Shown piece by piece: positions 36,873-41,807 of a DNA stretch of 42,098 nucleotides. The notes under the pieces are model-generated. The model ran no database searches, had not been told where the DNA came from, and saw only the letters and a list, made by a program, of their open reading frames with translations. The stretch spans positions 1 to 42,098 of the forward strand of contig JABDLC010000080.1 of NCBI GenBank assembly GCA_013001905.1, read 5' to 3'. The translations under genes were made by a program, and so were the position numbers. The DNA comes from Gammaproteobacteria bacterium (GTDB lineage Bacteria > Pseudomonadota > Gammaproteobacteria > Steroidobacterales > GCA-2729495). How positions within the stretch are numbered: the stretch's first letter is position 1; each line of letters starts with the position of its first letter.

Positions 36873-37946
36873 ATGTCTGAGAACAACCGTACCGTGCCGC
36901 TGTATACGGCAGGCGCCATGCAGATGTCCTGCCAGGCCGTCAACGGCTGCAAGACCAAAGAAGAAGCGATTGAGGTACGGAAGCAGACGCTGGCGAAGAT
37001 TCGCAGCTACGTATCCGTCAACAAGATGTTCGTGCAGTTTTACAACGGCAGCAATGTCGGCGTGATGGTCTTGCCCGAGTACATCCTCAGCGGGTTCCTG
37101 CTGGGTGAGTCGCATGAGGAATGGCACCACAAGGCTTGTATTGAATATGACGGTTTCGAATACGAGGAGCTCGGCAAGATCGCACAGGACAACGATCTGT
37201 ATCTCGCCGGTAATGTATACGAGATTGACCCGAATTTTCCGGAACTTTATTTTCAGACCTGCTTCATCATCGCGCCGAACGGCAACGTGGAGTTGCGCTA
37301 CCGACGCCTGACATCATCGTTCGAGATGACGCCGCATGACGTGCTCGATAAGTATCTTGACGTGTACGGTGTCGAGGGGCTGTTTCCTGTCCTCGATACG
37401 CCTTACGGGCGGCTCGGTTGTATCGCGTCCGAAGAAATCATGTGGCCCGAACTGGTGCGTGCGATGTGCCTGCGTGGCACGGAAGTGTTGTTGCAGCCGA
37501 CGAGTGAGCCGGGCAGTGACAAAGACACCGACAGGCAAATCGCCCGCCGCGCCAGAGCCATTGAGAATCACATCTATATCGTTGCGGCCAATACGGCGAC
37601 AATCGACGGTATTCCTATCCCTGCGTACACATGCAGTGGTCAGTCCTGCGTGATGGACTACAAGGGCGACATCATGGCTGAAGCGGCGATGGGCGGCGAA
37701 AGCATGTTTGCGCACGCAATTATCGATATCGACTTTTTGCGTGCGCGGCGGCGTCAGGGCGGGATGTTCAATCACTTCTCCCGTCAGCTGACCGATGTCT
37801 ACGCGATGATGTATGCGCAAAATCCGATTCGCACCGGCAATACATTGTTGAAAGACGGGGAGATTCAGCCCCATCCTGACAAAGACTGGTTCCGCGCCCG
37901 GCAGAACGATTTGCTTGAGCGGCTGACGAAAAACGGGGTCATCTGA
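36873..37946 (+). CDS. Nitrilase-superfamily protein lacking catalytic Lys and Cys
   Basis: A 357-residue carbon-nitrogen hydrolase fold. The catalytic Glu is present (E69 in VLPEYILSG), but the lysine position reads Arg (R145 in LRYRRL, usually YRK) and the cysteine nucleophile position reads Ser (S186 in LGCIASEEIMWPEL, where active enzymes have C-[YW]-[DE]). The genomic codons are CGC or CGA for Arg and TCC for Ser, so these are not translation errors. It may be a non-hydrolytic or altered family member. AGGGGG precedes the ATG. The molybdopterin oxidoreductase gene follows 91 bases downstream on the same strand, so a joint function is possible but unproven. Confidence 0.85.
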   Translation: MSENNRTVPLYTAGAMQMSCQAVNGCKTKEEAIEVRKQTLAKIRSYVSVNKMFVQFYNGSNVGVMVLPEYILSGFLLGESHEEWHHKACIEYDGFEYEELGKIAQDNDLYLAGNVYEIDPNFPELYFQTCFIIAPNGNVELRYRRLTSSFEMTPHDVLDKYLDVYGVEGLFPVLDTPYGRLGCIASEEIMWPELVRAMCLRGTEVLLQPTSEPGSDKDTDRQIARRARAIENHIYIVAANTATIDGIPIPAYTCSGQSCVMDYKGDIMAEAAMGGESMFAHAIIDIDFLRARRRQGGMFNHFSRQLTDVYAMMYAQNPIRTGNTLLKDGEIQPHPDKDWFRARQNDLLERLTKNGVI

Positions 37947-38037: not shown

Positions 38038-40785
38038 ATGACTCTGACCACGACTCGGCGCAACTTTCTTGGCGGAAGTAGCGGTCTGGCCCTGTCTCTC
38101 AAGTTTGGCGCCGTCGGCGCGGCGGGCCACGAGAATGTCTACCGGCGCTGGGAAGACATCATGCGCAACAAGTGGACCTGGGATCGGGTCGTGCGCGGTA
38201 GTCGCGGTCTGAACTGCACAGGTCACTGCGCCTTCAACATCTTCGTCAAGAACGGCATCGTCTGGCGTGAAGAACAGCAGGGCGAATACGGCCATCAGGG
38301 TGACGACACGCCGGATTTCGGGCCGCGCGGCTGCCAGAAAGGGCTGCGTCAGCACAAATATATGTATGGCAAGCAGCGTGTGCTGTACCCGATGCGTCGC
38401 ATTGGTGAGCGCGGCGAAGGCAAGTGGGAGCGGATCAGCTGGGATGATGCGCTGACGCAGGTTGCCGACAAATTCATTGATATCGCGGTGGAAGACGGCC
38501 CAGAGTCGATCACCTATGCCATGGGTACCGCGATGATCCTGAAACGAGCCGGGTTTGCCGGTCTGTTTCGCTTTTCCAATATTCTGGGCAACGTGATTCC
38601 GGAGACGTTTGCCGGTGTCGGCGATCTGCCGGTCGGCGCCAACATGACGCTGGGCTTTCCGTTGCCGGGCGACAGCATGCCTGCGGTCTTCAAATCAAAG
38701 ACCTGCCTGATCTGGGCCTGCAACCCCGCGGCTACGCGTATTCCCGACGCGCACTTTTTCTGGGAAGCGCGCTACAACGGTACCGAGGTTATTTGTATCT
38801 CGCCGGAGTTCAGCCCGACAGCCGTGCGCTCGTCGAAATGGGTGAATCCCAAACCCGGCAGCGACGCGGCGCTGGCGCTCGGCATGGTGCACGTGATGAT
38901 TCGCGACAATCTCATCGACTGGGATTACGTGAAAGAACAAACCGACATGCCTTTCCTCGTGCGTGCGAGCGATCAGAAGTTTTTGCGTGAGTCTGATTTT
39001 GTCGAAGGCGGTCGCGACGACGGATTCTATTTTTGGGACGAGGCCTCGGGTCAGCCGCAGGCGGCACCCGGAACCGGTTTTTCGAACCCCTTTGCGCCGC
39101 CGGATCCGAATAAGAAGCCTGAATCATTGGTTCTCGGTGACTTGCAGCCGGCCGTCGAAGGTTCGTGGACAGTAGAGACTGCGGACGGGCCGACTGAAGT
39201 CACTACTGTATTTGAGTTTCTGAAAACGGAAATGAAGAACTACACGCCCGAGCAGGTGCAAACCATCACGGGTGTCGCACCGGGCGTGATCGAACACGTG
39301 GCTACCGCATTCGCCACCAACGGGCCGGGCATGATCTTTGCCGGCTATCGCGCCAACAAATGGCTGCACGGCGATCTCGTGCTGCGTTCCTGGCTGTTGA
39401 TGTGTGCACTGACGGGTAACACCGGCCGTGAGGGCGGGGGTATGCAGACCACCCAGTTGCCGCGTGCCGAGGGTATTTTCGGCTACGTCTTTGCGGGCCT
39501 CGGGCCGCGGCTGCGGATCGCCGCCATTTCGGTCTGGGATTATGCGAACAGTGATGGTCGTGCGAATAACGAGCGGGTCTACGGTAAAGAGTTCGCCGAC
39601 CATATTGATAAGCACTATCAGGAAGCCAAACAGAAACGCTGGTTGCCGGATTATGCGGCGAAGCCATGGCGCATGGCGCTCATGGCCGGTCACAACCCGG
39701 CGAACTGGCGTGCGACGGGCGAGGCCTGGCGTGAATCGGCGTTATCGCAGGTTGAGCTCATGGTGGCGATGACGCCGGACATGAGTGCCACCGCGTTGTC
39801 CAGCGACATTGTGCTGCCGGTCGCGCATCACTATGAAGTGCAGGACATGACGATGGAAGGCCGCACACCCTACCTGCAGGTTATCGACGAAGCCGTGCCA
39901 CCGCTCGGCGAATCATTGCCGGACTGGAAAGTGCAGCGTGCGCTGATCAAGAAAATTTCCGAGCGTGCCAAAGCGCGGGGAATTACGACGATCAAAGACA
40001 ACATGTTCGGGCAGCCGATTGAGCGTGACTATGCGAACGCCTATGAAGCGTTTACGTTGAACGGCCAGATCAGCGAACCGACGGATCTCGTCGAGTTTAT
40101 GATTAGCAATCAGCCCGGCTTGCCTAACGTGACCTGGGAAGAGTTGAGCAAGAAGGGTTTTGTCAGGGTCGACGATTCCAAAGATGTGCAGTTCGGCAAA
40201 AACTCAGCGTTTAATTATGAGACGCTGGAAAGCACGCGCGAAAAGCATCCCTGGAAGACGCTGACGGGTCGCCAGCAGTTCTACATCGATCAGGAGACCT
40301 TCCTGGCCGAGGGTGAAGCACTGCCGGTGCACAAAGAGCCGCTTACTAACAAGGGCTTCGACCTGCGCCTCACGATGGGTCATGCCCGCCATGGTATTCA
40401 TAGCTGGGCGCGTGACGATTCACTGCTCGTCAGCCTGCAGCGCGGCGAGCCTGACGTCTATGTGAACCCCGACGATGCGCAGGCACGCGGTGTTGCCGAC
40501 GGCGATCTGATCCGCGTGCATAATGATTTCGGTGATTTTGTGGCGATGGCGCATGTCAGCTCCGGTATGCAGCCCAGCCAGATGTTCATGTATCACGGCT
40601 GGGATCCGACGATGTTCCGTAACCGTCGTAATTTCAGTTCAGTGATCTCCACCGGCGGCCTGATCAAACCGGTGCAAATGGTGGGCGATTACGGCCATTT
40701 GCGCTATCAGACGCCTGATTTCGTGCCCAACCAGACTTATCACGACTGTACGGTAGAATTTGAAAAGTTCACCGGCGACGCATAA
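38038..40785 (+). CDS. Molybdopterin oxidoreductase alpha subunit, type II DMSO reductase family, Tat-exported
   Basis: A 915-residue molybdenum enzyme with a Tat signal (TTRRNFLGGSSG, residues 5-16), so it acts in the periplasm. The Fe-S (FS0) region has C60-x3-C64-x34-C99 with the exact spacing of NarG, but the first ligand, His in NarG, aligns with R56. The likely molybdenum ligand is D196 in GVGDLPVG, as in the Asp-type type II family (NarG, EbdA, DdhA, SerA, ClrA, steroid C25 dehydrogenase). Soluble periplasmic members hydroxylate hydrocarbon or sterol C-H bonds, or oxidise sulfides or oxyanions; the substrate here is not decided by sequence. AAGGAG precedes the ATG; the Fe-S subunit follows after 20 bases. 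Confidence 0.9.
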   Translation: MTLTTTRRNFLGGSSGLALSLKFGAVGAAGHENVYRRWEDIMRNKWTWDRVVRGSRGLNCTGHCAFNIFVKNGIVWREEQQGEYGHQGDDTPDFGPRGCQKGLRQHKYMYGKQRVLYPMRRIGERGEGKWERISWDDALTQVADKFIDIAVEDGPESITYAMGTAMILKRAGFAGLFRFSNILGNVIPETFAGVGDLPVGANMTLGFPLPGDSMPAVFKSKTCLIWACNPAATRIPDAHFFWEARYNGTEVICISPEFSPTAVRSSKWVNPKPGSDAALALGMVHVMIRDNLIDWDYVKEQTDMPFLVRASDQKFLRESDFVEGGRDDGFYFWDEASGQPQAAPGTGFSNPFAPPDPNKKPESLVLGDLQPAVEGSWTVETADGPTEVTTVFEFLKTEMKNYTPEQVQTITGVAPGVIEHVATAFATNGPGMIFAGYRANKWLHGDLVLRSWLLMCALTGNTGREGGGMQTTQLPRAEGIFGYVFAGLGPRLRIAAISVWDYANSDGRANNERVYGKEFADHIDKHYQEAKQKRWLPDYAAKPWRMALMAGHNPANWRATGEAWRESALSQVELMVAMTPDMSATALSSDIVLPVAHHYEVQDMTMEGRTPYLQVIDEAVPPLGESLPDWKVQRALIKKISERAKARGITTIKDNMFGQPIERDYANAYEAFTLNGQISEPTDLVEFMISNQPGLPNVTWEELSKKGFVRVDDSKDVQFGKNSAFNYETLESTREKHPWKTLTGRQQFYIDQETFLAEGEALPVHKEPLTNKGFDLRLTMGHARHGIHSWARDDSLLVSLQRGEPDVYVNPDDAQARGVADGDLIRVHNDFGDFVAMAHVSSGMQPSQMFMYHGWDPTMFRNRRNFSSVISTGGLIKPVQMVGDYGHLRYQTPDFVPNQTYHDCTVEFEKFTGDA

Positions 40786-40805: not shown

Positions 40806-41807
40806 ATGCCTGCTCATCAAGTATCAATGGTCATTGACCTCAACAAGTGCATCGGCTGCCAGGCTTGCACCGCGGCGTGTAAATCGCTGTGGACAGACGA
40901 GCCCGGTCAGGAGCATATGTTGTGGAATAACGTGGAAACCAAGCCGGGCCCGGGTTATCCCCGCTACTGGGAAGAAGGCGGCGGCGGTTGGACCGAAGAC
41001 GGCACGGCTCTGAAGCCCGGCAAGTTGGCAGAGAAGGAGGATTTCGGTGAAGAAATCCCGCTGAACTTTGAAGAGGTCTACTTCAAGGGTGAGGAGCAGA
41101 TCCTCAAGCAGCAAAAACCGATGGGCAAAGGCGCCAACTGGGACGAAGATACCTCCAGCGGCGAGTACCCCAATAACTACCACTTTTATTTGCCGCGCCT
41201 GTGTAATCACTGTACTAAACCGGCCTGTCTTGAGGCCTGCCCGGTTCGCGCCATCTACAAGCGTGAAGAAGACGGCATCGTGCTCGTCGATCAGGACAAA
41301 TGTCAGGGTTTCCGCGAGTGCAACAAAGCCTGCCCCTACGACAAGGTGTACTTCAACTACACGCAGGGCAAAAGCCAGAAGTGCATTTTCTGTTTCCCGC
41401 GCATGGAGGAAGGTGTGGCACCGGCATGTGCGCGACAGTGCCCGGGGCGCTTGCGCTTCGTGGGTATGCTTGACGACGAAAATGGCCCGATCGACAAGCT
41501 TGTGAACCAGTGGAAGGTGGCGTTGCCGCTGCACCCTGAGTACGGCACCGAGCCGAATGTCTTTTATGTGCCGCCGATGCTGCCGCCCAAATTTGACGAA
41601 GATGGCAACTTCGCCGACGAGTCTGACCCGCGCGTACCAATGGAATATCTGCGCTCATTGTTCGGCCCTGAAGTTGATCAGGCGTTGATCACCATGCACG
41701 AGGAGATGGAGCGCAAGCAGCAGGGTAAGGAGTCCGAGCTCATGGATCTGCTGATCGCGCACGAGTGGAAGTCACTCTTTAATATTCCTGATGTAAAGAT
41801 CGCGTAA
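40806..41807 (+). CDS. Four-cluster Fe-S beta subunit (NarH/EbdB/DdhB-like)
   Basis: A 333-residue electron-transfer subunit carried out through the Tat pathway by its alpha partner; it has no signal of its own. Ferredoxin-type cysteine groups are C15-x2-C18-x2-C21-x3-C25, LCNHCTKPACLEACP, CQGFRECNKACPY and CIFCFPRMEEG...CARQCPG. In CQGFREC the second Cys is replaced by Phe, the position that is Trp in NarH, which marks a [3Fe-4S] cluster. So three [4Fe-4S] and one [3Fe-4S] are expected, passing electrons to a heme or cytochrome subunit. It is co-transcribed with the alpha subunit and 13 bases before the next lipoprotein gene. Confidence 0.94.
   Translation: MPAHQVSMVIDLNKCIGCQACTAACKSLWTDEPGQEHMLWNNVETKPGPGYPRYWEEGGGGWTEDGTALKPGKLAEKEDFGEEIPLNFEEVYFKGEEQILKQQKPMGKGANWDEDTSSGEYPNNYHFYLPRLCNHCTKPACLEACPVRAIYKREEDGIVLVDQDKCQGFRECNKACPYDKVYFNYTQGKSQKCIFCFPRMEEGVAPACARQCPGRLRFVGMLDDENGPIDKLVNQWKVALPLHPEYGTEPNVFYVPPMLPPKFDEDGNFADESDPRVPMEYLRSLFGPEVDQALITMHEEMERKQQGKESELMDLLIAHEWKSLFNIPDVKIA

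Follow-up and report, generated by a model that had tools for sequence, protein, structure and literature searches.

Nitrilases are defined by a Glu-Lys-Cys catalytic triad. In a characterised, active relative of the protein described here, the Glu acts as proton acceptor and the Lys as proton donor, and the oxyanion hole is formed by the Lys together with the backbone NH that follows the Cys (PMC4812014). The same triad is found in aliphatic amidase (2uxy, 2plq) and the formamidase AmiF (2dyu, 5g3o), and in the N-carbamoylputrescine amidohydrolase MtCPA (5h8i-5h8l), where it consists of Glu48, Lys121 and Cys158. A Ser at the nucleophile position is known in MtCPA from the laboratory mutant C158S (PMC4812014), in which the Lys is intact.

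Here we analyse a gammaproteobacterial gene that carries Glu, Arg and Ser (E-R-S) at these three positions, so that the Ser is natural and fixed and an Arg replaces the Lys. It lies at 36873-37946 on the + strand of a 42,098-nucleotide stretch of DNA, which we refer to as the window. We found no report of an E-R-S subfamily in the open-access literature on nitrilase pseudoenzymes, on natural Cys-to-Ser members or on molybdenum gene clusters that include a CN hydrolase.

An intact nitrilase-fold gene with altered catalytic positions

The open reading frame starts with an ATG preceded by a Shine-Dalgarno-like AGGGGG and runs through 357 codons (357 amino acids) with zero internal stops. Its product matches the Pfam family CN_hydrolase (PF00795; 4.7e-26, 92.1 bits against a curated cut-off of 23.2), and among the curated NCBIfam hydrolases compared (AguB, formamidase, deaminated glutathione amidase and aliphatic amidase) the best score was 58.6 bits, where the cut-off is 410. 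A signal peptide is not evident. The protein is probably cytoplasmic, and by descent and fold it belongs to the CN_hydrolase family. Compared with its nearest orthologue, the window gene has a dN of 0.053 and a dS of about 2 (NG86); this dS is saturated, and therefore only dN is safe.

An AlphaFold2 model built with 25 aligned homologues reached a pLDDT of 90.1 and a pTM of 0.91, and its best solved match was the aliphatic amidase 2uxy, with Z 31.8 and an rmsd of 3.0 over 290 aligned residues. Against active amidases, formamidase and carbamoylputrescine amidohydrolase the Z scores were 28-32: aliphatic amidase and AmiF share the fold over about 290 residues with Z 30-32, and MtCPA shares it with Z of about 30. 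The model and these matches place the protein in the alpha-beta-beta-alpha fold of nitrilases. Aliphatic amidase and AmiF are also similar in length, including a C-terminal extension, and have a Glu at the equivalent place, but they are only about 15-19% identical to the E-R-S protein and carry Glu-Lys-Cys rather than Glu-Arg-Ser. The original prediction, made from this DNA alone, had held that the gene is not decayed and that the fold is intact. The open frame, low dN and high-confidence model rule out a decayed gene.

We assigned the catalytic positions by alignment with solved nitrilases (Nit2, NitFhit, Nit3 and formamidase) and by hhalign of the subfamily profile against E-K-C paralogues, including one from the genome to which the window belongs. 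E69 (codon 37077-37079, + strand) aligns with the Glu of the E-K-C paralogues, R145 (37305-37307, +) occupies the place of the catalytic Lys, and S186 (37428-37430, +), within the motif A-S-E-E-[IV], occupies that of the nucleophilic Cys. The phmmer and hhalign alignments agree on R145 and S186, bearing out the proposal that E69 is the only triad residue kept. For the second Glu of the catalytic tetrad, no conserved Glu and no clear equivalent is seen at the expected place; an invariant D156 stands at R145+11. In the modelled secondary structure, E69 follows strand 62-66, R145 follows strand 139-144 and S186 opens the helix after strand 179-183, so that S186 is predicted to sit at a strand-helix junction, as a nucleophile elbow requires. 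The Glu of the triad is thus present, and the Lys and Cys are not; with two of the three features of the catalytic superfamily missing, neither nitrilase nor amidase is an appropriate annotation for the gene.

The E-R-S trio is invariant in a distinct subfamily

Homologues were collected from 60 relatives, from 296 genomes of the window's order, 398 of its phylum and 369 of its class, from 299 genomes of a further order within that phylum and from plasmid records. The E-R-S trio was invariant in all 149 distinct close homologues (95/95 in a first set and 54/54 in a second, whose loci lie nearly all outside the window's order). The first set held 114 distinct proteins: 95 E-R-S, eight E-R-C and one more in which a codon could not be read, together with a small number that were E-K-C or degenerate. 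One label in this set, E-T-C, probably reflects a slip of the alignment, since a Lys stands beside it. The second set added, besides its 54 E-R-S proteins, two with Gln-Lys-Gly. Holders of E-R-S belong chiefly to the window's gammaproteobacterial order and to another order of the same phylum, and one is actinobacterial (Nonomuraea gerenzanensis). Among the sequences sampled, the trio is thus fixed across two phyla, the second represented by a single actinobacterium. Profile scores separate the group, since every protein above 380 bits is E-R-S, E-R-C proteins reach at most 343 bits and Cys-bearing proteins score lower. One E-R-S homologue (L252, G980:C3:155984-157015) has an in-frame TAG inside the match, which may mark a late pseudogene or an error.

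Over most of the E-R-S protein, identity falls to about 40%. Among the 147 full-length members, 29 of the 357 columns are invariant, and these include E69, R144, R145, A185, S186, E187, E188 and E212. Given 36 invariant columns among 93 sequences, three columns chosen beforehand would coincide with invariant ones by chance with a p of about 0.001. The S186 codon is TCN in 93 of the 95 sequences checked and AGC in the other two; TCC, TCT and AGC lie one base from a Cys codon, and no reversion was seen among these sequences. The alignments contain no invariant Cys or Lys column, and the most occupied Cys column is filled in 71 of 95 proteins.

In both trees a single change to Ser suffices. The E-R-C proteins (L071-L075, L140, L141 and L152) form a separate group (support 94 in the first tree and 99/95 in the second) that is sister to E-R-S, with the E-K-C paralogues and other E-K proteins outside. 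This sister group, likewise uncharacterised and 34% identical in the profile alignment, already has Arg in place of Lys but keeps the nucleophilic Cys, in the motif PCGEIMYPE. The topology fits a change of Lys to Arg first and of Cys to Ser afterwards; we infer this order rather than read it directly from the trees, because the outgroup's position has weak support (70 in the first tree, 94/59 in the second).

The original prediction had raised the question of whether Ser and Arg are conserved as a subfamily, and had named two findings that would speak against it, namely close homologues with a normal triad and another Cys and Lys in the active site. Ser and Arg proved to be conserved throughout, every close relative being E-R-S, and the search for an alternative Cys and Lys found none conserved. 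At the level of sequence, invariance and single origin demonstrate selection on the trio, and they support the prediction's joint claim of either a pseudoenzyme under selection or an enzyme of different chemistry. E-R-S proteins are a genuine, uncharacterised branch of the nitrilase family.

Nitrilase-fold proteins without the nucleophilic Cys also occur nearby in the family. Three of the six CN_hydrolase proteins of the window's genome lack it; besides the E-R-S protein, those encoded at L081:3355-4413 (contig C141) and L082:8469-9608 (C135) have a Gly or no clear residue there. The first belongs to a cluster (L081:1870-14691) that contains UbiD, two nitrilase-fold genes, isochorismatase-like, PuuE-like and amidohydrolase genes, a luciferase-like monooxygenase gene and a second class II molybdenum alpha gene, and that looks like a catabolic island for a nitrogen-containing compound. 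The Gln-Lys-Gly proteins are encoded on Novosphingobium plasmids (L218:8632-9837 and L219:8629-9846), where their genes adjoin luciferase-like monooxygenase genes and lie near genes for molybdopterin-binding oxidoreductases.

One E-R-S subclade is linked to a molybdenum enzyme

The molybdenum genes said to lie directly downstream were found on the same strand: an alpha subunit of the class II DMSO reductase family (38038-40785, +), with a twin-arginine (RR) Tat-like N terminus and perchlorate reductase alpha as its closest solved relative, and an iron-sulfur beta subunit (40806-41807, +) that scores over the TIGR03478 cut-off. No terminator-like site was found on the + strand between the genes. 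In the window's family, 38 genomes carry the E-R-S subclade and 39 an orthologous alpha gene, and the two stand side by side in 36; in all 36 testable genomes the E-R-S gene is directly upstream of alpha on the same strand. In the remaining four, the assembly breaks off at the gene or splits the pair between contigs, so that these apparent exceptions to the pairing are explained by contig ends. In one genome (G001; L046, L225) the nitrilase-fold gene still precedes alpha though beta does not follow it; a beta gene is found elsewhere, behind a TIGR03482-like chaperone gene and a MoeA-like gene.

The neighbouring alpha subunit is itself unusual. It aligns over its full length with PcrA (E 1.7e-162 to perchlorate reductase, 4ydd), but differs from class II members such as 4ydd and ethylbenzene dehydrogenase (2ivf) in scoring below the TIGR03479 cut-off and in having Arg at the His ligand of the iron-sulfur cluster FS0, a residue said to be conserved throughout subfamily II (PMC8840923). 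The motif reads RGLNCTGHC, against HLVNCTGAC in PcrA. Of the 30 orthologues compared, 29 have Arg and one has His at this position, and the second alpha paralogue keeps His. The class II arrangement of FS0, with three Cys and one His as ligands, is therefore absent from the neighbouring alpha.

The E-R-S proteins linked to molybdenum genes (family f1) form one group in the tree with support 100. In both homologue sets, E-R-S proteins of other clades had no molybdenum gene of this class nearby. Because the linkage is confined to one subclade, a molybdenum-tied role is ruled out for E-R-S proteins as a whole and cannot be their general function. The recurring neighbours in the window's order are FAD oxidases (18/57) and zinc-type oxidoreductases (12/57). 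Within 5 kb of the second-set genes we found a PuuE-allantoinase-like gene in at least 30 of 54 loci, an FAD oxidase in at least 17 and an isochorismatase-like hydrolase in at least 14, counts that are lower bounds because many loci have short flanks. The PuuE-allantoinase-like and isochorismatase-like neighbours in other clades constitute a predicted setting of amide or ureide breakdown.

A working pocket or a non-catalytic one

We lean towards an active pocket that has been kept and remodelled, given the invariance of E69, R144, R145, S186, E187, E188 and E212. The best explanation, to which we assign a probability of about 0.47, is an uncharacterised branch of the nitrilase family with a working E-R-S pocket and putative serine chemistry. 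Arg could keep the oxyanion role of the Lys but hardly its role as proton donor, and we therefore propose that Glu69 would take the proton of Ser186, which would attack the carbonyl of an amide, ureide or ester, and that Arg145, replacing the Lys, and residue 187, through its backbone NH, would hold the oxyanion. The outcome would be a serine acyl-enzyme or a variant of this scheme in which no covalent bond forms. More tentatively, this serine-nucleophile branch may have arisen through the extant E-R-C intermediate, with one subclade recruited to the FS0-altered molybdenum enzyme; in the window's lineage, we hypothesise, the protein probably handles a substrate or product of that enzyme.

Several points count against this reading. 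Arg is a poor proton donor, the second conserved Glu of active nitrilases lacks a clear equivalent here, and the engineered change of Cys to Ser in the Medicago enzyme prevented formation of the covalent adduct (PMC4812014). The chief rival is a pseudoenzyme that has kept its pocket for binding a ligand, as a sensor or regulator, or its fold as a scaffold, with the molybdenum enzyme as its partner in the window's lineage; we regard it as a serious contender, on balance doubtful. In its favour, neither the nucleophile nor the proton donor is retained, the pairing with the molybdenum alpha gene is strict, and related paralogues show other losses of the nucleophile (E-K-G in the window's genome and Q-K-G in Novosphingobium); this part of the family thus seems to lose catalysis repeatedly. 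A scaffold, however, would not be expected to hold E69, R145, S186, E187, E188 and E212 invariant across differing neighbours and two phyla. A non-catalytic pocket that binds a ligand would show such invariance too. Taken with the neighbours in other clades, the invariant pocket favours a working one, its catalysis putative.

It is improbable that the protein is a dedicated maturation factor for the Tat-exported alpha subunit. In favour of such a chaperone, no signal peptide is evident in the protein, and in all testable genomes its gene immediately precedes that of an alpha bearing a Tat-like signal; the pairing persists in G001, where beta does not come after alpha, and no TIGR03482 match lies beside alpha in the ten genomes searched. 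However, most E-R-S proteins, those of other clades, are unlinked to a molybdenum enzyme of this class and a TIGR03482-like chaperone is encoded elsewhere in the same genomes, which makes this role less likely, and the fold is unlike that of TorD/NarJ. The alignments refute two last readings, namely a normal amidase with a different Cys and Lys at work, and a lone mutant or an error of sequencing. The protein does contain several Cys residues, but the lack of any invariant Cys or Lys column rules out the former, and the shared trio in 149 of 149 homologues rules out the latter.

Implications

Automatic annotation of E-R-S genes as carbon-nitrogen hydrolases is unsafe. A large, selected Glu-Arg-Ser branch with an extant E-R-C sister group amounts to a natural experiment on the conversion of a cysteine hydrolase, in which the replacement of Cys by Ser in a nitrilase fold with coevolved surroundings becomes directly testable.
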